A stretch of 33,828 nucleotides of DNA from a virus, in the IMG/VR virus record IMGVR_UViG_3300019754_000013, positions 1 to 33,828 of that record. The stretch is one strand, 5' to 3'. A model generated the notes under the pieces. That model was not told the DNA's origin and ran no database searches. It worked only from the letters and a program-made list of their open reading frames with translations. Made by a program: the position numbers and the translations under genes. Of the stretch, positions 1-33,828 are shown in pieces. How positions within the stretch are numbered: the stretch's first letter is position 1; each line of letters begins with the position of its first letter.

Positions 1-123
1 ACATATCAGTAGCACTCTGTAACGTCCAAGTTGCAGCTACTATATTTCCTTTTTTGAATGAAGTACTATTTTTGCTCATTTTCTTTTTAATAATAACACA
101 TTATTTGCGCATTGCTTCAACTC
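1..123. repeat. Left copy of 123-bp terminal direct repeat
   Basis: Bases 1-123 are identical to 33706-33828. The small terminase gene that ends the window reads from one copy into the other, and its start overlaps the stop of the sigma-like gene, so the two ends belong together. The likeliest cause is assembly of a circular or circularly permuted molecule cut at an arbitrary point inside a gene. A genuine short terminal repeat is possible but would be oddly placed within coding sequence. Confidence 0.95.
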
Positions 124-3164: not shown

Positions 3165-3392
3165 ATGGCATTTAAATCAGAAAGAAGAATACTACTAGAA
3201 GGCATGCTGAAAGGCGAAAAGCTTTCATTCGATCTAATCGAAGAGCCCGAGATGCGCAGAATGGCGCAAGACTTAAACAGAGTTCTAAGAGAGAAAAGCG
3301 GTATCAAAAACGATATGACACGCTATTATTCAGTTAACAGAGTAAAAAATCAGGGTATAGTTTTGGTTACCCGTAATCGCAACGCAAAATGA
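3165..3392 (+). CDS. Small hypothetical protein upstream of ERF
   Basis: A 75-aa basic protein of unrecognised family, with an N-terminal helical part (residues 5-45) and a short C-terminal beta hairpin (VKNQGIVLVTRNRN). Its stop overlaps the ERF start by 4 bases (ATGA), so it is translationally coupled to the recombinase. A nucleic-acid binding helper is plausible from charge and location only. Confidence 0.65.
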   Translation: MAFKSERRILLEGMLKGEKLSFDLIEEPEMRRMAQDLNRVLREKSGIKNDMTRYYSVNRVKNQGIVLVTRNRNAK

Positions 3393-3931
3393 AAGAACTA
3401 AAAGACATACAGGTATCACTTAAGGTCAGCAAGGACAAAAAGGAGAAGTCGGGTAAATACAGCTACAGAAGCGTGGAAGATATAACAGAAGCCTTAAAAC
3501 CTCACTTGGAAATTACTGAGTGTGCTGTTACTCTAACGGATGACATCGTAATGGTTGGTAATAGAATTTATGTAAAGGCGACTGCTACTATTACTAACAA
3601 AAACGGGGAATCAGTAAGCACGAACGGGTTTGCTCGTGAATCAGAGGGCTCTAAATTTATGAGCGATGGGCAATTGACGGGAGCTAGCTCTTCTTATGCA
3701 CGAAAATATGCATTGTGTGGGCTGTTTTGTATTGACAGCGGTCAAGACCTTGACGGGCAACCTGTAGAGGTTAAAAAAGCGGTTAATAAATTCCCCGAAT
3801 TATCTAAAAAACTTCTTGTTTGCACAAAGCTTGACGAGCTTATGATATTATGGGAGGATAACGTAGACATGCAGTCAGATAAGAGTTTTCAGTTGCTATT
3901 CACTAAACGCAAAAAAGAGCTTACAGCATGA
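3389..3931 (+). CDS. erf: ERF-family single-strand annealing protein
   Basis: A 180-aa annealase of the ERF superfamily, which pairs complementary single strands in phage recombination and genome circularisation. Family signatures are YSYRSVEDITEALKP (residues 24-38) and TGASSSYARKYALCGLFCID (97-116), the latter the most diagnostic motif. The C-terminus after about 130 is variable. The following gene, overlapping by 4 bases, is a PD-(D/E)XK nuclease. This is the usual two-component exonuclease/annealase system, in which the nuclease makes the single strands that ERF anneals. Confidence 0.9.
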   Translation: MKELKDIQVSLKVSKDKKEKSGKYSYRSVEDITEALKPHLEITECAVTLTDDIVMVGNRIYVKATATITNKNGESVSTNGFARESEGSKFMSDGQLTGASSSYARKYALCGLFCIDSGQDLDGQPVEVKKAVNKFPELSKKLLVCTKLDELMILWEDNVDMQSDKSFQLLFTKRKKELTA

Positions 3932-4827: not shown

Positions 4828-5240
4828 AAACCTACAATTTGAAAAACAGCGCACAACGCAACGAATTTAAAGCAGCCTGTAACAGGGCTGCGAAAATGGG
4901 GTTAATTGTCGTGTTTGAGGAAGTTAAAGAAACTAGGTCTTTGTCTTTAAACAATTACTATCAATTCTGCATCAAGTATTTTGCTAGCCAATACGGTGAT
5001 ACGGCGCAGGCGGTGAAGGATGAAATCTTTAAAAAATTGTGCAATAAGGAAACGTTTATTCAAAGAGATGGCTCCTTAAAAAGTACAAAGGATTTAGATA
5101 GTAGAGAATTTTCTCTATGTATTGAGAGGTTTAAAAATTACGCTGCTATGAAGTGCGGAATCTGCATCCCTAACACGGACGATAACGCAGCGATGCAGGA
5201 AGCTAAGAATGAGATCAAAAAAAATAAGGAGTTTTTATAA
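4824..5240 (+). CDS. NinB-like recombination protein
   Basis: A 138-aa protein whose layout resembles the NinB/ORF family of phage recombination mediators: a basic N-terminal strand-helix, RSLSLNNYYQFCI (38-50), then KSTKDLDSREFSLCIERFKN (residues about 91-110) and a closing CGICIPNTDD segment. NinB binds single-stranded DNA and helps load annealing proteins. Its place between the ERF/nuclease pair and a NinG-like gene matches the lambda nin order. The 1-base TAATG overlap couples it to the next gene. Family assignment is by pattern memory and should be taken as probable. Confidence 0.6.
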   Translation: MKTYNLKNSAQRNEFKAACNRAAKMGLIVVFEEVKETRSLSLNNYYQFCIKYFASQYGDTAQAVKDEIFKKLCNKETFIQRDGSLKSTKDLDSREFSLCIERFKNYAAMKCGICIPNTDDNAAMQEAKNEIKKNKEFL

Positions 5241-5635
5241 TGGCAAATTTAAAACTTAAGCTAGACAAGGAATTTAGCAAGTATATCCGATACCGTGATG
5301 CGATGGATAACGGATGCTTCAAGTGCATATCGTGCGGTCGTATCCTCCCCTTTTCGCAAGCCGATTGCGGACATTACATTAACCGACAACACATGGCAAC
5401 GAGATTCTCAGAGATGAATTGCAACGCTCAGTGCAGGAAGTGTAATAGATTCCAGGAAGGCAATATGCAAGGGTACCGCAGGGGTTTAATTGCTAAATTC
5501 GGGGAGAATAAAGTAAAGGTGCTCGAATCTAAGCAGCACGAAACAATGAAGATTTCAGAGAGTGAGTATAAAATTATGATCAAATTCTATTCTAAGGAGT
5601 GGAAGAAATTAAAAAAAGAAAAAGGTTATGAGTAA
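5240..5635 (+). CDS. ninG: NinG/Rap-like recombination protein
   Basis: A 131-aa protein matching the NinG (Rap) family, which promotes Holliday-junction processing in lambdoid recombination. It shows CISCGR (29-34), then ADCGHYINRQ (41-50), RFSEMNCNAQC (55-65) and CRKCNRFQEGN (65-75). Paired cysteines (29/32 and 65/68) suggest zinc binding, and the GHY...R...RF...N pattern is family-typical. It resembles a degenerate HNH fold, so an HNH-like endonuclease activity is the alternative. It completes a four-gene recombination block. Confidence 0.85.
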   Translation: MANLKLKLDKEFSKYIRYRDAMDNGCFKCISCGRILPFSQADCGHYINRQHMATRFSEMNCNAQCRKCNRFQEGNMQGYRRGLIAKFGENKVKVLESKQHETMKISESEYKIMIKFYSKEWKKLKKEKGYE

Positions 5636-6544: not shown

Positions 6545-6680
6545 GATGCTATGTTTAGCTGCAATTCCTGCATCGTTGTTAGGGTTATCGTATGTACTAG
6601 GAAGTGAATTTGTTGAGAAAATCGCAGACATTAGCTTGTTTGTTGTAGCGATCGCAGGATTCTTAATCTTCGAAAAATGA
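6516..6680 (+). CDS. 54-aa membrane protein
   Basis: Encodes MKKRIKKIAK followed by two hydrophobic segments, residues 11-28 (MLCLAAIPASLLGLSYVL) and 39-52, joined by a short acidic loop. The basic N-terminus suggests an inside start. The stop overlaps the ATG of the DUF4373 gene (ATGA), which supports real translation. An early two-pass membrane miniprotein could act on the host envelope or in exclusion; no family is recognised. Confidence 0.65.
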   Translation: MKKRIKKIAKMLCLAAIPASLLGLSYVLGSEFVEKIADISLFVVAIAGFLIFEK

Positions 6681-7408
6681 AAGATACGCAATACTTTTTC
6701 GCCCACGACTGCAATGCAAGGCAAGATGAAAAAATTGCACTTGTCAGGATGCAACACGGGGCAGAAGGATATGCAGCATACTTCATGACATTAGAAGTAC
6801 TAAGAACTGCATCAGACTATATGCTGAGTAGAAACTACAGTATACTATCGTTTGATTTCCATATATCGGAAGATGTGATTAAATCAGTGATAGAAGAGTT
6901 TGATTTGTTTGAATTTACCCCCGATAATCGTTTTTATTCGTCAAGAATGATGCGGAATATCGAAAAAACCACAGGAAGGGCGAAAAAAGCTGCACTTGCT
7001 AGATGGTCGAAGAAATCTAAAAAGTCAACAAAAAAAGCTGAGGATAAACATAAAGTTACGATAGCTGAAAAAATTGAAGCTTGCAAAAAGCGAAAAAAAG
7101 AGTTCTATAACGAAGTTGCTAGATTTTCAGATAAGTACGAACCTGAGATGCTGAGGGAGTTCTTCGATTGGTTTTCAGAACTGAACAAATCGGGTACAAA
7201 AATGAAATTCGAGCAAAATACAACTTGGGAAACTAGTAAGAGATTGGCAACATGGAAAAATAGAGACAAAAAGTATGGGAAAAATAAAAACGGTAAAGGA
7301 GATAATAGTCAGCGCTCCGAAAATGCAAAAGCGGCAATCAACAAGTTTAACAACGCAGCAAAAAAAGCTGAAAGTGGGGAAATTGGAACTATCGAGTTCC
7401 CAATATAA
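6677..7408 (+). CDS. DUF4373 (Lin1244/Lin1753-type) replication protein
   Basis: A 243-aa protein whose first 100 residues match the DUF4373/Lin1244 domain of phage replisome organisers: KDTQYFFAHDCNARQDEK (2-19), RMQHGAEGYAAYF (24-36), then a winged-helix-like part ending FYSSRMMRNIEK. The rest is Lys rich with a helical segment (120-190) that may bind DNA or a helicase. Such proteins are related to DnaD-type initiators and are thought to load the replicative helicase at the origin. The iteron region at 730-918 would be a natural target, though this is not shown. Confidence 0.8.
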   Translation: MKDTQYFFAHDCNARQDEKIALVRMQHGAEGYAAYFMTLEVLRTASDYMLSRNYSILSFDFHISEDVIKSVIEEFDLFEFTPDNRFYSSRMMRNIEKTTGRAKKAALARWSKKSKKSTKKAEDKHKVTIAEKIEACKKRKKEFYNEVARFSDKYEPEMLREFFDWFSELNKSGTKMKFEQNTTWETSKRLATWKNRDKKYGKNKNGKGDNSQRSENAKAAINKFNNAAKKAESGEIGTIEFPI

Positions 7409-13997: not shown

Positions 13998-14182
13998 TTG
14001 ATTTTATTGTTTTGAAAAATTCCTTTAATCAACTCTTTAGCAGAGTTATTCTTTACGTAAATAAATAGCGCAGAGCAGATTGTTACAGGGAATAATTCCC
14101 ACAAACCCGATCCATTTTCGTGAATGTGGTAAAGCCCGAACAGGAACAATACCACACCCATTATGTTGGTTACCTTGTTCAT
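13994..14182 (-). CDS. Holin-like two-TM small membrane protein
   Basis: A 62-aa protein with two predicted membrane helices, about 4-19 (VTNIMGVVLFLFGLYH) and 29-44 (WELFPVTICSALFIYV), and a basic C-terminal tail. Length, topology and place at the head of the spanin/endolysin genes fit a small class II-like holin. It is coupled by ATGA overlaps to the genes on both sides. No specific holin family is recognised. Confidence 0.65.
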   Translation of the reverse strand: MNKVTNIMGVVLFLFGLYHIHENGSGLWELFPVTICSALFIYVKNNSAKELIKGIFQNNKIK

Positions 14183-14703
14183 ACGAAGTCTGACACTTTT
14201 ACCATTGAAAAATCCAATCCGTATTGAGTTATTACTCCCAATGAGTTCGTAAATGTTTTACTTTTCGCTGTCGCAGAGCCTGACCCCGTTAAGCCTAACT
14301 TTATTCTGAACTTATCGTTTTTTTCCAGCTGGAATAACCCCGCTAAAGGTAGAGACGTGGAACTATCATTTAGCTCGTTCATTACTAGGTGTCCTTCATT
14401 TTCCCAAGTAACACCATCGTCTGTTGATTTTTCAACCCATGCACTAAGATCAACATTTCCAAGGCTTTCGATGTATAAAAAGAAATCTACGTTATATATG
14501 CCTTTTTCTTGCACTGTAAAAACTCCAGACGCTAAGTCTATAGCGTAGCTAGTATCTATCACAGGCATATCTACAAGCGTATCAGCACCTATGATTAAGT
14601 CAGCAACTCGCCTACAGTGCATTCTAGGCTGATAACTTACAACGTCGGTGGGGTCTAATACGGGGATTAAGTTGCCCGTAAATGGATTTGTTACGTACTT
14701 CAT
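14179..14703 (-). CDS. Tail-associated beta-jellyroll protein, receptor-binding candidate
   Basis: A 174-aa protein, mostly beta strand. It includes GIYNVDFFLYIESLGNVD (about 87-104), VEKSTDDGVTWENEGH and FQLEKNDKFRIKLGL, then GSGSATA. The pattern resembles the C1q/TNF-like jellyroll heads of phage receptor-binding proteins and virion adhesins. It lies between the tail-tip genes and the lysis cassette, where receptor-binding proteins are commonly found. The specific role (fibre tip or adhesin) is inferred from fold and location. Confidence 0.6.
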   Translation of the reverse strand: MKYVTNPFTGNLIPVLDPTDVVSYQPRMHCRRVADLIIGADTLVDMPVIDTSYAIDLASGVFTVQEKGIYNVDFFLYIESLGNVDLSAWVEKSTDDGVTWENEGHLVMNELNDSSTSLPLAGLFQLEKNDKFRIKLGLTGSGSATAKSKTFTNSLGVITQYGLDFSMVKVSDFV

Positions 14704-14985: not shown

Positions 14986-17496
14986 CTAAGTCCAAGTGTT
15001 TTGCCCCACTTTTACCCAAGAATCACCCGAATTAGTAGGGTTCGCCCTGCTATCTGTGCAGTAAATCATCTGTACACATTCGCCGCCTGCAATTGTTAAA
15101 TCAGCTCCTAGAATATACCTTACAGTTAGTGAGTATTGCAGACTTCTGTTGAATATTGTTACTATCTGTCCGTCATACCCTTGCCCTAGCGATATTTCAG
15201 CCCCCGAAGTGCTTTGAAGGGATAAAAATCTAACTCCATTCATGGAAATCTCTGCCCCTGAAACAAATAATCGAACAACTCCTTCTTGCTCCTTGCTTTC
15301 GATGTAATCCTTAATGATTCCTTCTACATCACTCTTATTAGTAGAATTACTTGTACCTTCTGAGTTTCCGCTTGCTTTGCTGAATTCTACGTTTTTTTCT
15401 TCATTTTCAAGCGTTAGATCAAAATGTTCTAATTCCTTCGTTCCAAATTCGGGGTCTATCCAAGTCTCAGGCTTGATTTGAGCAAACTCTACCTTGGTCA
15501 ACTCGCTAGCACCCGATTTAAATCCATCAATCAAATTTATTTTAAAGAGCCCACTCCCGAATTTTGCTGTGTTCAAATAAATTGTATCTCTAAGGCTTAA
15601 TTCTGCTATATCACTAGCTGTTAATTTAAGTTTTGCAGTTAACAAAATCAAGCTGTCATCTTCATATCCATACCCTTTGTAAAACTTATCGTAAAGGGTT
15701 GTTTTACACTCAACAATAGGTGATGTTTTTTCGTACGATTTCTCGACCGCCCAAGCCATCACGACGTTATTTGGATTCTCGATTTCGTCGAAGTAGTAAA
15801 TAAATCTACTTGTGTATATTGGTAGTCCCAATGCACCGCCCGTTGGTGATGTATATTCGTAGTCGGCAAAGCAAATTCTAGGCTTCGATTTGAAACTAAA
15901 TTTACCATCTTTGTTCGTAGCATCTAAATACCCTCCGATCGAATGAGGTGTAGCGGATGTAAGCTTTATATTGTTCGTAGCTTTTCCCCTCGCCGCTGCT
16001 GGGGTGTAATCGTATATCCTAGACCCCGTTTGATCAAAAAAATCTTTAGTAAAAAAAGTATCAGCTGATGAGAAGGAGAATGTATCTACTGAGCTCTTTT
16101 GAGAACTAATTGTTTTTATCGTTACACTATCTGCATCTATCTTACTTGACCAATCTCTTGTAACAGTAGATGACTTAAGCCATTCTTCCCAAGTTTCAAT
16201 ATGAATAACCCCATTTTCCTCTGTAACCATTGCGTTAAACATCGTTATTATGTCATCAAAGAAGGCTTTTTTCTTGTAATTCAGAGGCAATACATCATTC
16301 TTATATACCGCCTTGTTCCCTGAATAATACCCATCTATTTTCGTTATTCTGATATTGCCCTGGACTTCAAGGATAGAGCCGCCTGCTAAGTTTCTATTCA
16401 CGTCCCCGATAAATATCTCATTATCGAATTGAGTACATTCAAAATAACCCGTCCAAGTTGCAGGGTATGTTTCTGTGTAGCTCGTAAGCTCGACGGGGTC
16501 GCCATCAAGTTCAACGTCTATAATAGACCCGTTATACTCCCCTTTTTTTATTACCGCTACTTTTGGCTTCACGCTTGGAATCTCCGTGCCTGCATTTCTT
16601 CCTAGAATCACATCAAGCGTTATCTTGTATTTCCCTGCGGCTGGCAATGGGATAGAGTTTCCGACGTGCGTGTTTATAGTCTCTGTTATATCATCTTTTA
16701 TTGCGTAGTAATCCCTCCAAGGCTTTATATTAAGAGGGTAGTCGGTTGCAATAGCCAAGGGGTATAAGGTATCTATCCTATAATCCGCAAAATCCCACTC
16801 TGTGCATAAGTTCCTGTAATCTCCGTTAAACGGCACATACATACGTGTTAGGTACCTCCTTACAAGAGGGGAAAAAGTAATAGTTCTATCCGCTTCTATC
16901 ATCAAGTTTTCAAGGAGCTCCATACAACACAATGCAGGCATAAGTATCTCATTCTTATTGTAAGTTATCCCTTCTATGTTGTTGAATCTCATTAACGAAC
17001 ATCCGAAAAAAATCCCCTCTCCCGTGAATGGGTGAGGCTGACGATTATAGAATTCATCTAGCATTAGTTGACGTGTGGGGTAAATCGGGGAGGATGGTAT
17101 ATTTAAGTCCTTAGAAGTGTCTTTATTCCCTTTTATCAATTCATCCCCAAACAACACTTGTAGGTTTACATTATCCTTAAACAGCACAACTTCGTAATAC
17201 TCCTTAGAGATACTTGTGAGCTTCAAAATACCTTCTAAAACCGTCTGTCCGTTAACAGCAAGTTTAGCATCGTATCGCCCGTTCCTGTCAAATCCTCCGA
17301 CCTTGTTGATGTTAAACAACTCTTCAAACATCGCAACGTTTCTCTTAGTTTGCAAAACTTTGATCGGTTTTGAAAAGCTGGTTTTGCGCTTACTAAACTC
17401 CTTAACGTCTTTGATTTGAATTTTTAAAGACACCGAATCTATACCCGTCGTATCGACATCATAGTTATTGATGTATAGTTTTATTTGTTCCCTCAT
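14986..17496 (-). CDS. Tail tip or baseplate protein
   Basis: An 836-aa structural protein. The start (MREQIKLYINNYDVDTT) and KRKTSFSKPIKVLQTKRN (about 36-53) are typical of large tail-tip proteins of Bacteroidota siphoviruses. The long central part is beta rich with many aromatic residues. The last 120 residues follow a Ser/Asn/Gly-rich linker (about 705-720) and form a beta domain (VRLFVSGAEISMNGVRFLSL) like a fibre or needle tip. By position it is the distal, host-contacting part of the tail. It overlaps the upstream gene by 4 bases. Confidence 0.7.
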   Translation of the reverse strand: MREQIKLYINNYDVDTTGIDSVSLKIQIKDVKEFSKRKTSFSKPIKVLQTKRNVAMFEELFNINKVGGFDRNGRYDAKLAVNGQTVLEGILKLTSISKEYYEVVLFKDNVNLQVLFGDELIKGNKDTSKDLNIPSSPIYPTRQLMLDEFYNRQPHPFTGEGIFFGCSLMRFNNIEGITYNKNEILMPALCCMELLENLMIEADRTITFSPLVRRYLTRMYVPFNGDYRNLCTEWDFADYRIDTLYPLAIATDYPLNIKPWRDYYAIKDDITETINTHVGNSIPLPAAGKYKITLDVILGRNAGTEIPSVKPKVAVIKKGEYNGSIIDVELDGDPVELTSYTETYPATWTGYFECTQFDNEIFIGDVNRNLAGGSILEVQGNIRITKIDGYYSGNKAVYKNDVLPLNYKKKAFFDDIITMFNAMVTEENGVIHIETWEEWLKSSTVTRDWSSKIDADSVTIKTISSQKSSVDTFSFSSADTFFTKDFFDQTGSRIYDYTPAAARGKATNNIKLTSATPHSIGGYLDATNKDGKFSFKSKPRICFADYEYTSPTGGALGLPIYTSRFIYYFDEIENPNNVVMAWAVEKSYEKTSPIVECKTTLYDKFYKGYGYEDDSLILLTAKLKLTASDIAELSLRDTIYLNTAKFGSGLFKINLIDGFKSGASELTKVEFAQIKPETWIDPEFGTKELEHFDLTLENEEKNVEFSKASGNSEGTSNSTNKSDVEGIIKDYIESKEQEGVVRLFVSGAEISMNGVRFLSLQSTSGAEISLGQGYDGQIVTIFNRSLQYSLTVRYILGADLTIAGGECVQMIYCTDSRANPTNSGDSWVKVGQNTWT

Positions 17497-20056: not shown

Positions 20057-22537
20057 TTAATTTAATAATTCCCAATCTGTCGCCGAAACGGTGTCGGTAG
20101 ACTTGTATAATTTATCGCTCGTTGTGTCTAAGTAAGATTGTTGAGGAATTGCAGGGACAGAAGTCGGCGCACCCTCTCCCGAAAGAAACTCTTGATAAGG
20201 AGCTTCCTTAGTTGGTTCTGCCGTACGTGTTGTTCCTGAAATCAAACTCTTATCTTCGGGGGTTGCCCCCGTGTCTACGAGCTTGTGGGGCTGGATGTTG
20301 CGTCCTAGGTATTCGTGGAGGCAGCCAATTCTTTTAACTCTAAAATCCTTGATGTTGTATGTTGCCCCATTTACACCGCCTGCATTCGCTGCATATACAC
20401 CTATCGGTACATCCCTAGAAGCTTTAAAAATAACCCTATACGGTTCGTATGAAGAGCTAAGTTGGCTACGTTCTTCATATAATTTAATACCTGTGCCTGA
20501 TTGGAATCCTGGATATTGAGAAGTGTTAGTTGATTTTATCAAAAAACTAACTTCATAAAGTTCTCCGACAATCATTGCTTCTAAATATGTACCAAATGGG
20601 ACATTATCACCATCTGTTGTGCCTGTAAGTTTTAAGCTATTATCTATAGTGTCTAACTCTTTAGTACATCGAATAAGATAATTTATTTTATCTACTTTTT
20701 CCTGCGTATTTAGTTCGTTAAAATAATTATAATCAATAGAATTGCTTGATTTATAAATAGCTGGCAACTCATACCTATCTACACGTCCTGTGTTGTACCA
20801 TGTGCGGACATCTTCGTTAGAGGGTTTGGAGTTAAACTCCTGTATTAAACTATATTTACCGAATCTTGGTGAAGCTGAGGTGTGTGTTAATGGATATTGC
20901 GAAAAATCTATAGAATCAACCAAATGCTCACCATTAATCCATACATCTAATATATTATTATGATATGAGTAAATAATATCATAATATGAATCATTTAATT
21001 CTTTAAAATCAACTCTGCTGCCGTTAATAGTGTAATACGCTAAAACCCTACCATTAACGTAGTAAATCCTAAATTCATTATCAGAGCTAGATGCATCATG
21101 TCTTGTTTGAAAGAATGCAGTATAATTACCAATACCTCTATTGAATTTCACCCAAAATCTAATTGTATTGTCTATAATTTTCGGGTGTATTACAGATGTC
21201 AAACCTATATTAACCCCCGTAAATCCCTCTCTCCTCGTAATCTCCCAATCATTAAGACTCGTATTATCCTTTGCATAATACTGCCTACCCTTACTGTCCA
21301 GGCATCTTTGAATCTTGCTTGCGGGGTTAGCAATAGGATAAGGGTGCGCACTCTCAACAAGTAGATTATTAATCGTCGTATCAGTATATGCAAATGCTTC
21401 GTTTTTAGCCGTATTTATCTCCCCGACTAGTGCAGTGTTAAGCTCCCCCGTTTTCGTGTCTGTATAAGCCTCTGATGCTACCATAGCGGCTTCTATCGAT
21501 TCGTCTTTGCTCTCCTCTATTTTATTCAAGTACGTCACGGGTATTGTATCTTTGTCCGCTTTTGTTTCAAATTCCGCCGCTTGAGCTTCTGAAATTGGCT
21601 TTTCCCTGTCGTACGTATTATCAACTCTTGATAGTCCAATTGTTGTCGGAGTAATCATGTGTGGGTTACTTCTGTCTGCTATGTGAGCCTGAATGTTAGG
21701 GTTTTTTGGCTCATACTGTCCATGTGTGTGATAGCCTTCTGCTACTGTCCCCGCTGTCACCCCAAAATCCTTATTAAACGCTGTATTCTTATCGAATGCA
21801 TCCTCTTTCACGTTTAACGCATTAATAGCAGCTGTCGAAAGTGGTTTGTCCGCATCTGCTGTATTCTCTACGTTGTTTATCTGTAGAGTGTTTTTGAATG
21901 TAGTTATCTCCGCAGGTGTCAACTCCCCTAAATCCTTATTCAGCTTTTTGTCAAGCAAAGCGTCTATCTCTGTCTTGTTGTAAGTATCACTTGCCGAACT
22001 CTCCCCCAGCGTACTACTTGCAAACATTGAAGGCTCTTGTATTGTGCTGATGTCAAACAATGCATCACTTGCAAGCCTCTGTTCTGCTGTTACTTCTCCC
22101 TCAATCACATCGTCGTATTCGGGAAACTTATCTAAGCTAGCTCTTAGGTACTCAACCAAATCAGCCTCGTAAGAAGAATACAGAGATTTGATATTGCCTT
22201 GTATCACTCTTAACTCTACTACTGTAAGACTGTTTTCTTCCTTGCTTATACCCGATTCTGTAATTCGCTGAAACTTGTTATCAATAATGTACTTAATAGC
22301 GTAGTATGTTAATACTTGCTGTAGTCTGTTATCAACTAAATCTTTGTAATCCCCGTCCAGCGTTCCTGCGAGTGCATCTGACGTTATCTTTTCGTACAAG
22401 GCGGTACCTAATACGGGTTTAAGATTAACCTCTTGCGCAAGCTGTATCGCAGTGTCGAGAGTATCGTCTGTTATGTTAGAATCAACGTAAGCGTTAGCTT
22501 TGATCGATTCTTTACTTACTAAGTTTATTCTTTTCAT
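20057..22537 (-). CDS. Head-tail connector fused to a fibre and lectin-like domain
   Basis: An 826-aa protein with two unlike parts. Residues about 1-145 look like a head-tail connector/adaptor: helical, DDTLDTAIQLAQEVNLKPVL, and VLTYYAIKYIIDNKFQ. Residues about 185-400 are fibre repeats: YNKTEIDALLDKKLNK, HTHGQYEPKNPNI, RSNPHMITPTTIGLSRVDNT, REKPISEAQAAEFETK. Residues about 435-600 resemble a laminin-G/concanavalin fold (DNTIRFWVKFNRG, IDVWINGEH-like NNILDVWINGEHL), followed by a second carbohydrate-binding-like domain and a C-terminal beta segment. It overlaps the portal stop by 4 bases, the expected connector position. It would put fibres at the neck. Confidence 0.75.
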   Translation of the reverse strand: MKRINLVSKESIKANAYVDSNITDDTLDTAIQLAQEVNLKPVLGTALYEKITSDALAGTLDGDYKDLVDNRLQQVLTYYAIKYIIDNKFQRITESGISKEENSLTVVELRVIQGNIKSLYSSYEADLVEYLRASLDKFPEYDDVIEGEVTAEQRLASDALFDISTIQEPSMFASSTLGESSASDTYNKTEIDALLDKKLNKDLGELTPAEITTFKNTLQINNVENTADADKPLSTAAINALNVKEDAFDKNTAFNKDFGVTAGTVAEGYHTHGQYEPKNPNIQAHIADRSNPHMITPTTIGLSRVDNTYDREKPISEAQAAEFETKADKDTIPVTYLNKIEESKDESIEAAMVASEAYTDTKTGELNTALVGEINTAKNEAFAYTDTTINNLLVESAHPYPIANPASKIQRCLDSKGRQYYAKDNTSLNDWEITRREGFTGVNIGLTSVIHPKIIDNTIRFWVKFNRGIGNYTAFFQTRHDASSSDNEFRIYYVNGRVLAYYTINGSRVDFKELNDSYYDIIYSYHNNILDVWINGEHLVDSIDFSQYPLTHTSASPRFGKYSLIQEFNSKPSNEDVRTWYNTGRVDRYELPAIYKSSNSIDYNYFNELNTQEKVDKINYLIRCTKELDTIDNSLKLTGTTDGDNVPFGTYLEAMIVGELYEVSFLIKSTNTSQYPGFQSGTGIKLYEERSQLSSSYEPYRVIFKASRDVPIGVYAANAGGVNGATYNIKDFRVKRIGCLHEYLGRNIQPHKLVDTGATPEDKSLISGTTRTAEPTKEAPYQEFLSGEGAPTSVPAIPQQSYLDTTSDKLYKSTDTVSATDWELLN

Positions 22538-23772
22538 AATTCGTTATTAATAGGTTCGTCTACTTCTGTGTTGTCTTCGTCTACTTCTGTATTCGCAGTA
22601 TCTAGCGCATCTAGCTTATCTATAGAGAGTGAAGGATAATCATTGATTTTCATCAACCTGTTGAACACTTTCAAAATCTCCAATTGCTTGGGCTTGATTA
22701 CTGTTGTGAAAAAGATGGTGTAGGCTGTTATTAATTCATCCTTGCTCCCCAAACCTGAGGTCGTTGGTATACCCATTAGGTTAGGATTGGTAACCCTATG
22801 TCCTGATAGTATTTTTTGCCGAGTCTGCTCTGCTATGGTCTTGAATTTCTTCTCGCTGCCTGTCTCCTTGACTTTGTCAATGATAGGAGCTTTTTCCTTT
22901 GTTTTTGCAAACAAGATTAAAGGTGCACCCGTTTTTGCAGCCCCCGTGTGATTCTTCATAAGTACACCAGCTGTTTTCTTTTTTTGCTCAGCGTTGTATT
23001 CTCCCAAAAACGTTACTGTAGTAATGTCATTCATACCGTTCGCTAACCCTTTTTCAGAGTAGGCGTTAACGCTTATGTCAGCACGAATAGATGACAGACA
23101 AGCGATGTAGTCGGGATATGGATAATAGAAGGAATCAGAGCTATAAGGCTTGAAGTATAACAACTGAGTGTGTTCTAAATCATCTACACCATCTAGTTGC
23201 GCTAAGTCCCCCGTTTGTACCGCCTTTTTAAATTGTTCTGCACGTTGCGTTACTTGGTTGTAGTTGTACGCTTCAAAAATAGTTTCAGGTTGCCTTGTTT
23301 TCGTCCAATCGTACCGAAATACAAATTGATCAATCTCACCCCTCGCATTGACAGGCATACATCGCACTTTGTCAAATGGTATATGATTTATCTCTACCCA
23401 ACTTCTATAGTCCCTAGACCACGTTACCAGCAAGGCAAACCCCCCGTATTTTACGCTATCGTAAGCAATTTTGGGAAGCATATCATTTATTCCCCCAAGG
23501 CTATTAATGTTCTCTAGCTTATCGCTTGCGGTTACATTTTCTTCGTCCATCAGGAATCCTTGTCCTGCGACTTGATCAATTTTAAATCTCAAAATTGAGC
23601 TATGCAATTCGTTAAGTCTTGCTAATTCATCTAGCTGCATAAAAAAACTATCCGTGTTCCCTGCCTTGATGTGCGCAACTCCTGCACGCTTTTCAAAAAC
23701 AGGAATCTCGAACGATTTTGCAGTTTCTTCAAACGACATTAACACCTGCATTGATTCTCTGTTATCCTTCAT
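22534..23772 (-). CDS. Portal protein
   Basis: A 412-aa protein matching portal proteins of Bacteroidota siphoviruses. It has a helical start; GINDMLPKIAYDSVKYGGFALL (split at about 94-115); WVEINHIPFDKVRCMPV (126-142); DDLEHTQLLYFKPYSSDSFY; and a long helical C-terminus containing VTNPNLMGIPTTSGLGSKDEL. The portal forms the ring through which DNA enters and leaves the capsid. It is unusual that it lies downstream of the major capsid gene, separated from the terminase by about 8 kb. Confidence 0.85.
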   Translation of the reverse strand: MKDNRESMQVLMSFEETAKSFEIPVFEKRAGVAHIKAGNTDSFFMQLDELARLNELHSSILRFKIDQVAGQGFLMDEENVTASDKLENINSLGGINDMLPKIAYDSVKYGGFALLVTWSRDYRSWVEINHIPFDKVRCMPVNARGEIDQFVFRYDWTKTRQPETIFEAYNYNQVTQRAEQFKKAVQTGDLAQLDGVDDLEHTQLLYFKPYSSDSFYYPYPDYIACLSSIRADISVNAYSEKGLANGMNDITTVTFLGEYNAEQKKKTAGVLMKNHTGAAKTGAPLILFAKTKEKAPIIDKVKETGSEKKFKTIAEQTRQKILSGHRVTNPNLMGIPTTSGLGSKDELITAYTIFFTTVIKPKQLEILKVFNRLMKINDYPSLSIDKLDALDTANTEVDEDNTEVDEPINNEL

Positions 23773-24076
23773 AATCTACTGTTATTTTATCTACGTTGTG
23801 CTCCTCTACATCCTCTTTTGTAGTAGTTACACTGTAAGTTGTTTTGTACACTAATTTATCCCCCTGAAACACCTCAAAATCGCCCTCTAGCGGCTGCAAA
23901 TCAAGTGTTGATTCGTCTATTAAGAACTGCTTAAATCGCAATGGAAAAGCTGATATATCAACTACTAGAAGCGTCTTTTCGTCGCCACCATTCGAAAACT
24001 TAAGCGTGTAGGCATCTTCCTGATTTTTTATCGAGATTGCAACCCGTGTTAATGCGCCTTTTAAAATTGGTATCAT
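23762..24076 (-). CDS. Small virion-associated protein upstream of portal
   Basis: A 104-aa beta-rich protein: MIPILKGALTRVAISIKNQ, then FEVFQGDKLVYKTTYSV. The strand pattern and acidic C-terminus resemble small structural proteins in the tail or connector clusters of Bacteroidota phages. It overlaps the portal gene by 11 bases. It is the first late gene after the + strand insert, and no minus-strand promoter of the known type lies before it. Role uncertain. Confidence 0.55.
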   Translation of the reverse strand: MIPILKGALTRVAISIKNQEDAYTLKFSNGGDEKTLLVVDISAFPLRFKQFLIDESTLDLQPLEGDFEVFQGDKLVYKTTYSVTTTKEDVEEHNVDKITVDYEG

Positions 24077-24939: not shown

Positions 24940-25428
24940 TTATGCTGTTACTACAGGCAAGTCAGCTTCCGCTATCACGGGGGCTGTTTTTGTTTCGTCT
25001 CCCGTGATCGTTACGGTATATCCATTCATGTCCGTGTGCGCTGTTCCTGTGCCCGCTTCTATTGCAGTCAAGTTACAACCCTCTTCGGCTCCTAGGACAA
25101 TGCCTACCCCGTTAAAGTCTACAGCGATAACAAGCAAATCATGTTTACTAAGTTCTTCTAATTCTGCTTGTTTTTCCGCAGATAATTTTGCGAAAACTAA
25201 CGTTCCAGCTTGTGCGTCTGCCGCTGAACCCGTTTCTACAGCCATTCCAAACGTATTCGTTACGTTACTAGAATGCTTGTTTGTTACGTACTTATAGAAC
25301 GCTCCGCCCGTGATAGTCGCTACTTTCGCTGTAGTCGATACCATTCCTTCTGTGAATACAGACGCTAAGACGTATTTAATACCCCCTGCTCCGTCGTATG
25401 TTTCTCTTGTTATTCCTATTTGTGCCAT
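24940..25428 (-). CDS. Probable major tail (tube) protein
   Basis: A 162-aa protein starting MAQIGITRETYDGAGGIKYV. Its GGIKYVLAS start, the central EKQAELEELSKHDLLVIAVD and later GVGIVLGAEEGCNLTAIEAG resemble a short virion protein common in Bacteroidota phages that I take to be the tail tube. Its C-terminus (ADMNG...TVTITGDETKTAP-like HTDMNGYTVTITGDETKT) fits that family. It follows the major capsid gene after a 51-base gap with a hairpin. The tail tube call is probable, not certain; a head decoration protein is the alternative. Confidence 0.6.
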   Translation of the reverse strand: MAQIGITRETYDGAGGIKYVLASVFTEGMVSTTAKVATITGGAFYKYVTNKHSSNVTNTFGMAVETGSAADAQAGTLVFAKLSAEKQAELEELSKHDLLVIAVDFNGVGIVLGAEEGCNLTAIEAGTGTAHTDMNGYTVTITGDETKTAPVIAEADLPVVTA

Positions 25429-25479: not shown

Positions 25480-26415
25480 TTACGATGCTTTTGTGTAAAG
25501 AACTTCCTCTTCTCTCACGATTGCAGTACCTAGCTTCCAATCAGCATCTAGCAACCAAGAATTACTATCGGTTGAGAATCTAAAGTTAATACCATCTTGA
25601 CCGTCTTCTGACTTCAAGTCAGTACCTACAATGATGTTCTCAGGGCGAGTAACAAACATTTCATTTTGCCCTGCTAGCCCGTAAAATCCAATTACTCGAA
25701 TCATTGTTCCAGGTATGTACGCTGACATAACAGGCTTGCCCGTATTCAAGTTCTGCGTGGTGATAACACCATTCAATCCAAATTTAGTTCTGTACCAAAC
25801 ATCGAAATTTTCAGGACTCATTGCAAGTATCATTTCAGTTTTGTTGAATTTCGGCAATTCAGATTTAACCTTTGACAAAATTCCGTTTACTTTAGAAAGA
25901 GCGTTCGCCTCAGTCAGCGCTACAGGCACTACACCCGTAATCTTGATCGTAGAACTTGCGTTCATTTTCTTCAATAACCCGTCGCACTCGTTAGCGTTTG
26001 AGCTATCCCCTACGAAAACCTGCGATTCGATGCGATCGCTAATCGCTACACCTTTCAGCCCAACGATTATGTCGGAAAAAGGCATATCCTCAGGTGAAGA
26101 ACCTCTCTTGAGTGCAAGTCCTGCTACCTTCTTGTCGAGCACGTACTTTGCGTATTTCTCACTGATTCCCATTGGGACTACAGACACGTCTACGTCGAGT
26201 ACTTTAACGCCTCCATCGAATCTATCTGCCTTCGTGTTGTCCGCTCCTCGAAAAACCGTTGAGCCCTCAGTGATGTCAATAGCCTTTTCGCTATTCTTAA
26301 TTCCCTCCTGCATCGTGAACTCTTGGAATACCTGAGTTTCTACAACTACATCTTTAAGGGGTCGTCTAGTTGTTCCAGCTACATAGTCAGCTGCTTGTGT
26401 GATGTCAAATGCCAT
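25480..26415 (-). CDS. Major capsid protein
   Basis: A 311-aa protein, the right size for a HK97-fold capsid protein without a delta domain. It begins MAFDITQAADYVAGTTRRPL; the middle has EMILAMSPENFDVWYRTKFG (193-212), and the C-terminal half has YIPGTMIRVIGFYGLAGQNE and EDGQDGINFRFSTDSNSWLL, typical of capsid P and A domains. It follows a scaffold-like gene and an XkdF-type protease. There is no motif test for HK97 capsids by eye, so this rests on gene order plus fold pattern. Confidence 0.8.
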   Translation of the reverse strand: MAFDITQAADYVAGTTRRPLKDVVVETQVFQEFTMQEGIKNSEKAIDITEGSTVFRGADNTKADRFDGGVKVLDVDVSVVPMGISEKYAKYVLDKKVAGLALKRGSSPEDMPFSDIIVGLKGVAISDRIESQVFVGDSSNANECDGLLKKMNASSTIKITGVVPVALTEANALSKVNGILSKVKSELPKFNKTEMILAMSPENFDVWYRTKFGLNGVITTQNLNTGKPVMSAYIPGTMIRVIGFYGLAGQNEMFVTRPENIIVGTDLKSEDGQDGINFRFSTDSNSWLLDADWKLGTAIVREEEVLYTKAS

Positions 26416-26996: not shown

Positions 26997-27569
26997 CTAC
27001 TCGCTAATTTCTTCTATTAATGTTTCCAGCAAGGTCTTATTTTTCCCCGCCTCTACCGCAACAGATTCAAATAAACCCTCGATTGAGAATCCCGTGTACC
27101 CTTCTCCGCTCTTAATAGATTCCCAAAGCTCATTGTCAAGAATCTTGTAACTTGCACACCAAGTTCCTTCTACTACAGATAGACCAAGAGCTACAGCCTT
27201 ATCGCATTCCGCATCCTCAACAATCCAGCTCTCGACCAATTTTGCTGAATCTGTAGGTAATAAATGCTCCAAGGACGCACCACCCCGTTCATCCTCCGAA
27301 AGAAACAATTCAGCACACTGTCTAATAGTGTCGGCAGAGAAGAATATCTCACATTCTCCTTTGTCAAACCCGCTGTTTCTGTAAATTTTTTGGTCAGGGA
27401 GTAAAACGACCCCCGTTACAACTCTCTTTTCTTCATCTGCCGAAAACTTTACCATCGTGGCGCTTTCTTTGAGCGCCACAAACGAGGATTCGTTGGCAGG
27501 CGAGGCGACAAGGGAGATATTGAACACCCCTTGCTCCTCGTTCTTTAATTTCATTTCAAATAATTTCAT
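26997..27569 (-). CDS. XkdF-like prohead protease
   Basis: A 190-aa protein matching the XkdF family of phage capsid-maturation serine proteases. The N-terminus reads FNISLVASPANESSF (16-30, the family's SLV-x-PAN block), then VVTGVVLLPDQKIYR (50-64), LEHLL with His 102, ESWIVE (113-118), EGTWCASYKI (134-143) and GFSIEGLF (160-167). These blocks occur in the family in this order. It would cleave scaffold and capsid precursors. It lies directly upstream of the scaffold gene. Confidence 0.8.
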   Translation of the reverse strand: MKLFEMKLKNEEQGVFNISLVASPANESSFVALKESATMVKFSADEEKRVVTGVVLLPDQKIYRNSGFDKGECEIFFSADTIRQCAELFLSEDERGGASLEHLLPTDSAKLVESWIVEDAECDKAVALGLSVVEGTWCASYKILDNELWESIKSGEGYTGFSIEGLFESVAVEAGKNKTLLETLIEEISE

Positions 27570-27572
27570 AGA

Positions 27573-30500
27573 CTATGATTCAAATTCTGATTCTCTTAAC
27601 TCCGCAGTTCTTGCAGCGTCCTTGATGTCATCTTGTACTATATAAACACGTTGAGAGTTTATTGCTCTAGCTATAGATTGAGATAATTTTTCATAATCTA
27701 TCTGAGAACCCCCACCTTTCGCAATTTCAAAAAGTTCCTTTTGCTGAGATTGCGTGAGTATCATCTCTTTACTATTCGCCAAAATATTGATATTATCCCC
27801 TGTATAAGAGTTCCCGTCTACAATTCCACCCGTTTCAAATTTTTGTACACCTTTTTTAGTTTTGCTTTTCTTGTCTTTTCCTGCCGAATTAATCGTAGCC
27901 AGCTGAGTACCAAGAGTTACACCAATCATTGCAGTTTGGGCAACCGCCTGGATAGTTCCGAACAACCCCATTTTTGCGTAACCTGCCCAAGTACCCATAA
28001 CAGCACTAGCGGCATCTAATACAGCACCTGTATAAGCTAGCGCCCTTCCATCCTCCGCAAAGGCAGATGCTTGTGTAGCCAGCGCCCCGAATGCGCTGAA
28101 TGTACGACTTGCGTTTTGCATCTTGACATCTGTAACAGCGTTATCTATAGCTTTTTTACGCTCTGCTGAATTTTCTTCTAACAGAAGGACAGCGTTGTTT
28201 AATTGCTTCTCAGTGATGTACTTTTTATCGTAATCATCCTTTAATCTCTTTTTTTGTTCTTCAAGCCTTAAATCCTCCTTAGCTTTTTCCGCCTCCGCTT
28301 TTTCATTACTTACTCCATCTTCGAGTTCTTTTTGCTCAATAGAAGCTTCATTTATAATGTCGTAATATCTTTGTATAGCTGATGCTTTTCGCTCCGCCTC
28401 CTGTTTATCATTTGCTTTGTCTATCGCCTCCTGTTTATCAGCCCACTTCTTTTTTATAGCCGCAATTCTTTCTTCTGACTTTTCCTGCAAGGCTACTTTT
28501 AATTCTAGCTTTGTCTCTTCATCTGTTTTTAATTGCTCAATTTCTTCAAGCGCTGCCTTTTTTCTGTCCTCTTCTGCTTCTAATTCTACCTCTAAGTTTG
28601 TTTTCTTCTGATATGATTTATTCCAATTTGCAAACTTTTTTCGTAGCGCCTTTATAGCTCTTATTATAGACTTCTCAGATTCCTCTTCATCTCCGCCTCC
28701 GTTTCCTTTCTTTTTTTTGATTGGGACAGCAACTGCGGGTCTAGTTTCAACAAGTGAAGATACTTTTATTTTGCTAGCAAGGATGTCGTTTGCTTTGTTA
28801 ATCTCTTTTATCTCGTCGCTAGCCGATTTTATGTTATCTTTATACTCAATTATTTTTTTATTTAAAGAATCGGCTATCTTTGTAAAAGAAGCACTTGCGT
28901 ACCCTGAGCCTATGACGTTCTCCTTCATAGCCTTGGCTCTATTTTTTCTGTTTTTCGCCAAACTGTCCTCTGTTGAATCAATGCTGGAGTTAAGATTATC
29001 TATATTTGATTCTAGCTCAACTATTTGCTTTTGATTTTCCGTTATTGCGTCTTTATATGCCTCCGTCTTGGCGACCTCTAAAATTCTTAGCCTAAGCTGC
29101 TTATAAGCCTCCGCAGCCTTCCCAACCGCAATTTCTTCTGCTGTTATATTTTTAAATACGTCTGGATGTTGCTTTATTAACTCATTAGCCGCCAGCAATC
29201 TATCTTTCATTGATAGATTTACGTTTGTCGATGCAGTGTATAATAAGTCTAATTTCGATGTTTGGCTTTTCGCATTTTTCAAACCCTTTTGAGTTGCGTC
29301 GTTTATTTTGTTTTGCACTTTTTCTGCTTTTTCAGCGCTAGAGCTAAACAAGTAATAAGCACTTGCCGCAGCCGTTAATAAAGTAACTAACCACCCGACC
29401 CAATTATTTTTTAATGCCGTATTAAAAGAACGAACCGCATTTGTTGCAATATTTGTCGCTACTGTAGTTATTCCTTGCATTCTTGTTAATCGAATCAACC
29501 CACTTATGTGAAGTTTTGTTGCAACCGTGGAAAGAATCATAGTTGTTTTATACGCAACCCATGCTGCAGTTGCTACGATTACAACTTTAGTTATAGCTTT
29601 TATTGATTCCGTATTTTTCCCCAACCATGTAACGAAAATTCTAGTATAATCAACGATTGATCGCATTATATTTCCCCCGTCTGACATTTTCAAGATAAAA
29701 CCTTGCCAGGCTGAGCCTAATAATTTTAAAGCCCCTGCCACGTTATCCCTTTGAATGTCAGCCATCGCCTGAGCCGCACCGCTTGCGTTTTCGTAAGATG
29801 TAGTTAAATCGTTTACCTTATCCTTATTATCTACAAGCACAATTAATGATGCCTTTGCCCGCTCCCCGACCAAGCTGCTGGCTTTTGCAAGTGTTAAATT
29901 CGACTTTCCTAAATCACCTAAAAATTGCTCTAGTGGCTTACCACTTTTTTCAACTTCTGAGAATATTCTTTTCAAAGACGTACCTGCCATACTCCCGTGT
30001 ATTCCTGCGTCAGCCATTGCTGACATAGCCGCTGTAGTCTGTTCTAGTGAAATATTAGCAGCTTTGGCAATAGGTGCAACGTATTTCATTGTTTCGCCAA
30101 ATCGCTCTAGATTAAGCGCTGAACTAGTGAATGATTTAGCCATTACATCGACAACATCCTTCGTCTTGCTTGCGTCCATCCCGAACGCTCGTACTGTCGC
30201 TCCTGCTATCTCTGCGGCTGTAGCTACATCCTCTTTAGTCGCTTCTGACAGTAGAATAGTCGCTTCTGTGGCATCTAATATTTCCTGCGTTGTGAACCCT
30301 AATTTTGCGTATTCAGTTTGCAGCGCACCGACTTCTGTAGCCGTTGCGGTTGTCGCCTCTCCAAGACGCATAGCGTCATCTTTCAGCAATTTAAATTGTT
30401 CATCCGTAGCTCCTGATATTGCGTGAAGTGATGACATTTGAGCCTCGAATTCTATCATCGTAGTAGTTGAAGACGAAAATACACGTCTTGCCGCTGACAA

Positions 30501-31232
30501 GCCTAAATATGTAGACGCTAGCATTTTAAGCTGAGATACCCCGTTTTTTGTAGCGTTGTTATTTTTTTGTTGCGAAACCGTTAGGCTGTCTAGTCGCTTT
30601 TGGGTATATTTTATTTGATTTGAAATTTTCTTGTAAGCTTCTGAACTTTTTCCTTGATTTTTAGCGATAGCAGACTGTCTATTGTATAGATAATTAAGCG
30701 TTTTGTTTAATTTTTTTGTAGCTATCTCATAATCTCCCACACTTAACGTATGCTTCCCTGTAGCCTTCTGCAATCTATTCATCTCTGAATATATATCAGC
30801 TGTTTTCTTTTCAAGGGCTCTACCCTCTGTTGTGTTTTTTCGCATCTCTGAACTCATACCGTTCAGCTTAATTTTATTTAGAGTGTATTCAGCTGATAAG
30901 CGATTGTAAGACCCAACTAGGCTTTCGTTCATCTTAACAGTTGCTTTAGCGAAGAGATTAGCAACCCGTCTTACCTCCTTTTCTTTAGCTAGCTCATAGG
31001 CTGTTTTTTCAATTTCTTTATTTTGCTCCTTTTTCGCCTTGATATTCTCTTTTGTGATTTCGCTGTCTTTTTTTACAGCAGTATCAAGCTCCTTCATTTT
31101 TGAAACAAAAGAACCTATATTACTATTTTTAATTAATTTATTTAAGTCTTTAAAAAACTTAAGTGCCATATCACGACCTTTTATCGTGATATCAATTAAT
31201 ACTTTTGCGCTGTTTTTTTGCTTGTTTGCCAT
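27573..31232 (-). CDS. Tail tape measure protein (TP901-type)
   Basis: A 1219-aa protein and the largest gene here. Residues about 258-425 are the TP901-type tape measure core: EFEAQMSSLHAISGATDEQF, TEVGALQTEYAKLGFTTQEI, DVVDVMAKSFTSSALNLERF, and AIAKAANISLEQTTAAMSAM-like KAANISLEQTTAAMSAMADA. A hydrophobic stretch at about 540-640 has several possible membrane segments, as expected for a protein released into the envelope at infection. From about 840 to 1060 it is coiled coil. At about 0.15 nm per residue it implies a tail of about 180 nm. The gene follows a probable tail chaperone, 4 bases away. Confidence 0.92.
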   Translation of the reverse strand: MANKQKNSAKVLIDITIKGRDMALKFFKDLNKLIKNSNIGSFVSKMKELDTAVKKDSEITKENIKAKKEQNKEIEKTAYELAKEKEVRRVANLFAKATVKMNESLVGSYNRLSAEYTLNKIKLNGMSSEMRKNTTEGRALEKKTADIYSEMNRLQKATGKHTLSVGDYEIATKKLNKTLNYLYNRQSAIAKNQGKSSEAYKKISNQIKYTQKRLDSLTVSQQKNNNATKNGVSQLKMLASTYLGLSAARRVFSSSTTTMIEFEAQMSSLHAISGATDEQFKLLKDDAMRLGEATTATATEVGALQTEYAKLGFTTQEILDATEATILLSEATKEDVATAAEIAGATVRAFGMDASKTKDVVDVMAKSFTSSALNLERFGETMKYVAPIAKAANISLEQTTAAMSAMADAGIHGSMAGTSLKRIFSEVEKSGKPLEQFLGDLGKSNLTLAKASSLVGERAKASLIVLVDNKDKVNDLTTSYENASGAAQAMADIQRDNVAGALKLLGSAWQGFILKMSDGGNIMRSIVDYTRIFVTWLGKNTESIKAITKVVIVATAAWVAYKTTMILSTVATKLHISGLIRLTRMQGITTVATNIATNAVRSFNTALKNNWVGWLVTLLTAAASAYYLFSSSAEKAEKVQNKINDATQKGLKNAKSQTSKLDLLYTASTNVNLSMKDRLLAANELIKQHPDVFKNITAEEIAVGKAAEAYKQLRLRILEVAKTEAYKDAITENQKQIVELESNIDNLNSSIDSTEDSLAKNRKNRAKAMKENVIGSGYASASFTKIADSLNKKIIEYKDNIKSASDEIKEINKANDILASKIKVSSLVETRPAVAVPIKKKKGNGGGDEEESEKSIIRAIKALRKKFANWNKSYQKKTNLEVELEAEEDRKKAALEEIEQLKTDEETKLELKVALQEKSEERIAAIKKKWADKQEAIDKANDKQEAERKASAIQRYYDIINEASIEQKELEDGVSNEKAEAEKAKEDLRLEEQKKRLKDDYDKKYITEKQLNNAVLLLEENSAERKKAIDNAVTDVKMQNASRTFSAFGALATQASAFAEDGRALAYTGAVLDAASAVMGTWAGYAKMGLFGTIQAVAQTAMIGVTLGTQLATINSAGKDKKSKTKKGVQKFETGGIVDGNSYTGDNINILANSKEMILTQSQQKELFEIAKGGGSQIDYEKLSQSIARAINSQRVYIVQDDIKDAARTAELRESEFES

Positions 31233-33392: not shown

Positions 33393-33784
33393 TCCGTAGG
33401 CTTTTCCCCTAATTTTACGACTACTTTTTTCTGTATCTCAATATTGGTGTTTTCAACCTTGTCAGTTTCCCCCATTTGTTTGAATCTCCAAATCACAGGA
33501 GCAGCTTTATAGCGACCTACAATTGCACCTTTATGCAACTTATTAATAATCATATCGTTGATGTCATCCCTAAAATCCTGCAATTCGGGGAATCTTTCAA
33601 GGAGGTGTTTAATTGTTGACTTATACACGCCGACACTACGCCATACATCCGTTAGACTTGCTATTTTCAAATCCTCATTTTCTGTGTTCCTTAACGCCCT
33701 CTCAAACATATCAGTAGCACTCTGTAACGTCCAAGTTGCAGCTACTATATTTCCTTTTTTGAATGAAGTACTATTTTTGCTCAT
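33389..33784 (-). CDS. terS: Terminase small subunit, crosses the circular join
   Basis: A 131-aa protein next to the large subunit with the usual layout: an N-terminal helical part including TSFKKGNIVAATWTLQSATD, an HTH-like segment (LTDVWRSVGVYKSTIKHLLE, 44-63), a helical oligomerisation part, and a C-terminal beta strand (IQKKVVVKLGEKPTE). It recognises the packaging site. Its start is inside the right terminal repeat, and in the circle the ATG overlaps the stop of the sigma-like gene (ATGA). Identification is by position and fold pattern. Confidence 0.75.
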   Translation of the reverse strand: MSKNSTSFKKGNIVAATWTLQSATDMFERALRNTENEDLKIASLTDVWRSVGVYKSTIKHLLERFPELQDFRDDINDMIINKLHKGAIVGRYKAAPVIWRFKQMGETDKVENTNIEIQKKVVVKLGEKPTE

Positions 33785-33828
33785 TTTCTTTTTAATAATA
33801 ACACATTATTTGCGCATTGCTTCAACTC
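33706..33828. repeat. Right copy of 123-bp terminal direct repeat
   Basis: Exact copy of bases 1-123. It covers the 5' end of the small terminase gene and the last codons of the sigma-like gene. Removing one copy gives a 33,705-bp circle. Confidence 0.95.

Follow-up and report, generated by a model that had tools for sequence, protein, structure and literature searches.

One gene of the virus record IMGVR_UViG_3300019754_000013 encodes, in a single protein of 826 amino acids (20057..22537, minus strand), a putative head-tail adaptor domain, a fibre and a lectin-like C-terminal part. We consider it likely that this gene is a fusion of a DUF6712 head-tail adaptor with the fibre gene following it, the two being usually neighbours in Bacteroidota-type long-tailed phages, and that its product forms collar fibres borne by the adaptor. 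As anatomy, the fusion of connector and fibre has good support, and putative collar whiskers that bind glycans are the best inference as to what it builds. Throughout, the window denotes the whole stretch of DNA analysed, 33,828 bases long.

The fused gene and its genome

The window probably represents a complete genome because it carries a perfect terminal direct repeat of 123 bases (1..123, identical to 33706-33828), which leaves ~33.7 kb of unique sequence. Genes on the minus strand include those of the portal protein (22534..23772; PHROG portal 3e-16, portals of relatives 4e-44), of a PHROG 19091 protein that is common to the relatives and a possible tail tube by position and resemblance only (24940..25428), of the major capsid protein, assigned from its position and from weak homology with relatives (25480..26415), and of an XkdF-type head maturation protease (26997..27569; PF14550, relatives 2e-35). 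In the window and its relatives alike the order is protease, scaffold-like gene, capsid, PHROG 19091 protein, small gene, portal and DUF6712, and sequence homology between them extends to protease, capsid, PHROG 19091 protein and portal. The tape measure gene (27573..31232, minus strand; PHROG 1e-62) lies upstream of the capsid genes, between terminase and head protease. This is an unusual order; the order of the head genes is comparable in the relatives. A protein of 104 residues without family match (23762-24076) adjoins the portal, where the relatives have a gene of 110-140 residues; it may serve in the neck or as a stopper.

The left arm contains genes for an ERF recombinase, NinG and a Lin1244-type protein (3389-3931, 5240-5635 and 6677-7408). 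Promoters of the Bacteroidota type follow the consensus TTTG, 17-23 bases, TAnnTTTG. Eight such promoter-like boxes were observed against two expected, and no shuffle reached eight. They lie at 1032, 2429, 6189, 8993, 9657 and 24167 on the plus strand, five of these six in the left arm, and at 662 and 2410 on the minus strand. This excess suggests that the host probably belongs to the phylum Bacteroidota.

The fused gene is read on the minus strand from 22537 to 20057 through 826 codons open without interruption, and its start overlaps the portal gene by the four bases ATGA. A preliminary description of the window had reported the single unbroken frame and the four-base overlap; both are borne out by the reading-frame check, and the motifs it quoted occur in the protein, at about residue 186 (YNKTEIDALLDKK) and about residue 291 (NPHMITPTTIGL). 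A nucleotide search with the fused gene across phage records gave no match. Scans of IMG/VR and of genome contigs found no close relative, whether the query was the whole fused protein, its N-terminal part, the portal, the terminase or the fibre part.

Fibre-type repeats occupy residues 214-329 (21551..21898, minus strand). Their best match among PHROG tail-fibre families is PHROG 35419 (2.1e-10), several other PHROG families match as well, and tblastn finds them in tail fibre or minor tail proteins of many phages; the fibre repeats noticed earlier are supported by the PHROG tail-fibre matches. The laminin-G or concanavalin-like region at residues 457-560 (20858..21169, minus strand) is suggestive only. 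The laminin-G profile PF13385 scores 17.2 bits with the whole protein (E 0.006) and 19.1 bits with the C-terminal piece scanned alone (E 0.0015), against a Pfam cut-off of 27.6 bits, so that of the laminin-G-like domain claimed at the outset a weak match under the cut-off is retained. A model of residues 425-785, built without relatives, was unusable (pLDDT 37). The C-terminal tip, residues 711-823 (20069..20407, minus strand), has 30% identity to a separate 642-aa ORF of the human faecal phage MT835674, which comes after a tape-measure-sized gene. Modules like the tip and the repeats occur widely in phage fibres. For the rest of the C-terminal half, no close relative turned up in the phage, IMG/VR and relative-locus collections searched.

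The long structural genes of the window are those of the tape measure, the portal and an 836-residue protein (14986-17496), the last matching, weakly, only a family whose function is unknown. A second recognisable long fibre gene is not found in the window, and in this probably complete genome the claim that there is no other long tail-fibre gene stands to that extent. It is qualified by the 836-residue protein and a 174-residue protein (14179-14703), which could form an adhesion device and serve recognition at the tail tip.

DUF6712 as a candidate head-tail adaptor

Residues 39-143 of the fused protein (22109..22423, minus strand) match DUF6712 (PF20459) with 41.7 bits in the Pfam profile search, above the curated cut-off of 25. 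A profile search of the genome finds one DUF6712 match in the whole record (44.3 bits). The alignment to stand-alone relatives covers approximately residues 1-165 and reaches the C-terminus of these relatives.

An AF2 model of residues 1-175, built from the window sequence and 20 relatives, is all-helical (pLDDT 77.8, pTM 0.73), most of residues 1-140 being modelled with good confidence. When the model was aligned by VIA with the Foldseek candidates, the top solved match was 8q01_b, with an rmsd of 4.2 over 121 residues and a Z of 8.8, a value in the range reachable by chance for helical bundles and thus not decisive for helices. The next row had a Z of 6.9, and 8q01_b ranked above all unrelated rows among 996 chains. 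Chain b of 8q01 was confirmed by sequence as the adaptor of phage 812. Foldseek of the model against the PDB gave no significant match, and comparing the profile of the DUF6712 part with those of HK97 gp6 and of the 812 adaptor revealed no link. Sequence and profile matches to solved structures had low scores only and were taken as chance. Solved adaptors have a beta-hairpin, which inserts into the stopper ring; the model contains no strand, and its loop 96-105 is of lower confidence.

The gene lies directly behind the portal gene in the structural operon, as is the case for connectors, here with the ATGA overlap. Mostly from position and fold jointly, we regard it as very likely that the N-terminal part is a head-tail adaptor. 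The connector proposed for it in the preliminary description gains from the position behind the portal in relatives, from the helical model and from an adaptor as top solved match; it does not gain a sequence link to known adaptors, and the structural score is in the chance range for helical bundles. A fold of residues 1-150 unlike connectors was not obtained. A literature search found no mention of DUF6712, and head-tail adaptor is thereby offered as a likely function for this family.

DUF6712 might instead be a different component of the neck or collar, such as a collar subunit that anchors fibres, the adaptor being encoded by another gene. This reading draws on the missing sequence link, on the moderate structural match to the 812 adaptor and on the 104-residue protein that also adjoins the portal. 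We consider it unlikely: the place of DUF6712 behind the portal, its size (~167 aa) and its all-helical fold suit an adaptor, and an adaptor leads the solved matches. Even if DUF6712 were a different neck protein, the fibre would still be located at the neck.

Probable origin by gene fusion and the proposed collar

Relatives were collected as the best 80 matches of each of three IMG/VR scans. The first was alignment-based and used the N-terminal part, the second used another lead sequence, and the third had the head protease as query, so that its relatives were not selected on DUF6712. The first two sets contain 153 complete DUF6712 ORFs of 165-195 residues, and stand-alone DUF6712 ORFs occur in 25 further loci of the protease set. 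Among these ~175 sampled homologues none has more than ~40 residues past DUF6712 (the longest tail is 34 residues in the first two sets and 37 in the protease set), compared with ~670 in the window, and a second fused example was not found. Natural homologues thus keep the two halves apart, a check that the preliminary description had proposed. Because each scan lists the best 80 matches and may leave out near-identical records, fused members of a rare clade may have escaped. Loci of the protease set with a portal and without DUF6712 were considered as counterexamples and rejected, as all of them end at or just behind the portal by contig end.

In 132 of 151 loci of relatives the gene directly before DUF6712 is that of the portal. 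Downstream, an ORF of at least 150 aa begins within 600 nt in 75 of 107 loci, at a median gap of 125 nt; the other 32 loci have no such long ORF, and this neighbour is common, not universal. The intergenic stretch between the two genes measures 50-280 nt in relatives, and none of it is left in the window. The genes downstream of DUF6712 in loci L017 and L046 match Laminin_G_3 above cut-off (29, 32 and 153 bits) and also PHROG tail (fibre) or virion structural families. Nonlabens phage P12024L has a separate 184-aa DUF6712 gene, with a fibre gene two genes on. Given this conserved gene order and the often adjacent fibre-like gene, fusion of neighbours is the simplest account. The fibre part itself has no homologue in those loci of the relatives that were compared with it, and the fused fibre is therefore not traceable to a particular neighbouring gene.

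Two side observations concern the relatives. In L241 (15254-15998) and L247 (14964-15705) DUF6712 measures ~248 residues; some 80 of them are inserted behind profile position 58 and may be an extra outer domain of the adaptor. L005 and L006 (NZ_CP040811, CP045836) are 'plasmids' assigned to Escherichia fergusonii and Lysinibacillus with XkdF protease, portal and DUF6712; their phage head genes have near-identical spacing, many ORFs are annotated as broken, and the two resemble a phage genome that may belong to another host.

The fusion could be apparent only, if an error of base-calling or assembly had erased the stop that parts an ordinary adaptor gene from an ordinary, separate fibre gene. 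All sampled relatives keep adaptor and fibre apart, the join lies almost exactly at the point where the DUF6712 of relatives stops, and the fusion is seen in a single sequence, from a contig of an uncultured virus. We nevertheless find such an error quite improbable. The join region (residues 144-185) is open, without stop and with coding-like composition by codon position. Nothing like the intergenic stretch of the relatives remains there, and the conserved gene order makes misassembly unnecessary as an explanation. The nearest internal ATG, M171, does not resemble a gene start: the A+T content of its 18-nt context is 0.61, against a mean of 0.58 for internal ATGs and at least 0.72 for 19 of 22 gene starts.

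That M171 context also bears on a reading in which the frame is real and yields two mature proteins, an internal start (e.g. M171) or cleavage in the linker freeing the fibre, maybe for the tail tip. The junction (residues ~166-180; 21998..22042, minus strand) lies just past the end of the stand-alone relatives and contains M171, the linker is rich in Ser and Ala with low confidence in the structure model, and the C-terminal tip is shared with the separate ORF of MT835674 behind its tape-measure-sized gene. Against this, no Bacteroidota-type promoter was found on the minus strand near the junction. An internal start at M171, with the A+T context of ordinary internal ATGs and no promoter-like box nearby, was not supported, and we judge two mature proteins to be quite improbable as well.

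In the preferred reading, a fusion of adaptor and fibre, the ~165 N-terminal residues would form a ring under the portal, probably of 12 subunits, and the rest of the protein would leave the outside of this ring as fibres, probably grouped in trimers, with lectin-like tips. With a single DUF6712 in the apparently complete genome, a fibre is to be expected on each adaptor subunit, unless the protein is processed. The neck would thus bear as many as twelve projecting fibres, perhaps arranged in four trimers, as a collar of whiskers. The lectin-like region suggests that these whiskers would most likely bind surface glycans and aid adsorption. An accessory role in adsorption appears more likely than a role as sole receptor-binding protein, since the collar of TP901-1 is reported to be non-essential for infection. 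A bolder version holds that all twelve adaptor subunits extend covalently into lectin-tipped fibres and form a new class of adaptor, and that the fibre genes after DUF6712 in this group encode neck fibres through which the phage first or mainly contacts its host; we regard it as rather doubtful.

Comparison with known neck and collar proteins

A close parallel in architecture is the neck passage structure (NPS) of the lactococcal 936 and TP901-1 phages, which forms neck fibres with carbohydrate-binding tips; the TP901-1 collar is reported to be non-essential for infection (PMC6669499). Like the fused protein, NPS is a neck protein of 500-900 residues in which a ring-forming N-terminal domain is followed by a fibre and then by a carbohydrate-binding module (PMC6669499). 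Accessory host binding has been proposed for NPS (PMC6669499). Unlike the fused protein, NPS has an N-terminus resembling the beta-sandwich of BppU, forms a separate collar with a proposed 18 copies and contains no DUF6712. A BppU-like beta-sandwich is absent from the N-terminus of the fused protein, where DUF6712 is found and the model shows helices throughout.

The adaptor of phage 812 is a dodecamer with a helical core (PMC12886913). This core of gp96 (8q01 chain b, PMC12886913) matches the model of residues 1-146, an additional domain of gp96 lies on the outside of the neck, and putative whisker density surrounds the adaptor (PMC12886913). In contrast to the fused protein, gp96 has 302 aa, its extra piece is a beta-sandwich and not a fibre, and there is no detectable sequence similarity; the putative whiskers of 812 are not described as part of the adaptor (PMC12886913). 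T4 fibritin (wac), the collar spikes gp40 of XM1 and the appendages gp12 of phi29 also project from neck or collar, but they are separate proteins that dock on the neck and not covalent extensions of the adaptor (PMC10491603). P12024L gp08 (YP_006560407.1) belongs to the same Pfam family and lies near the portal gene with a fibre gene downstream; unlike the fused protein it stands alone with 184 aa, and the fibre, gp10, has its own gene.

Neck fibres are therefore already known, as separate proteins in the systems compared, and as far as the collections searched show, the covalent link between adaptor and fibre is new. The fusion is a clue that fibre genes beside DUF6712 in many uncultured Bacteroidota-type phages may encode neck fibres. 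If every adaptor subunit bears a fibre, the ring would fix both the number of fibres and their attachment. If true, this would be a covalent way to build a collar, instead of the docking of separate whiskers.
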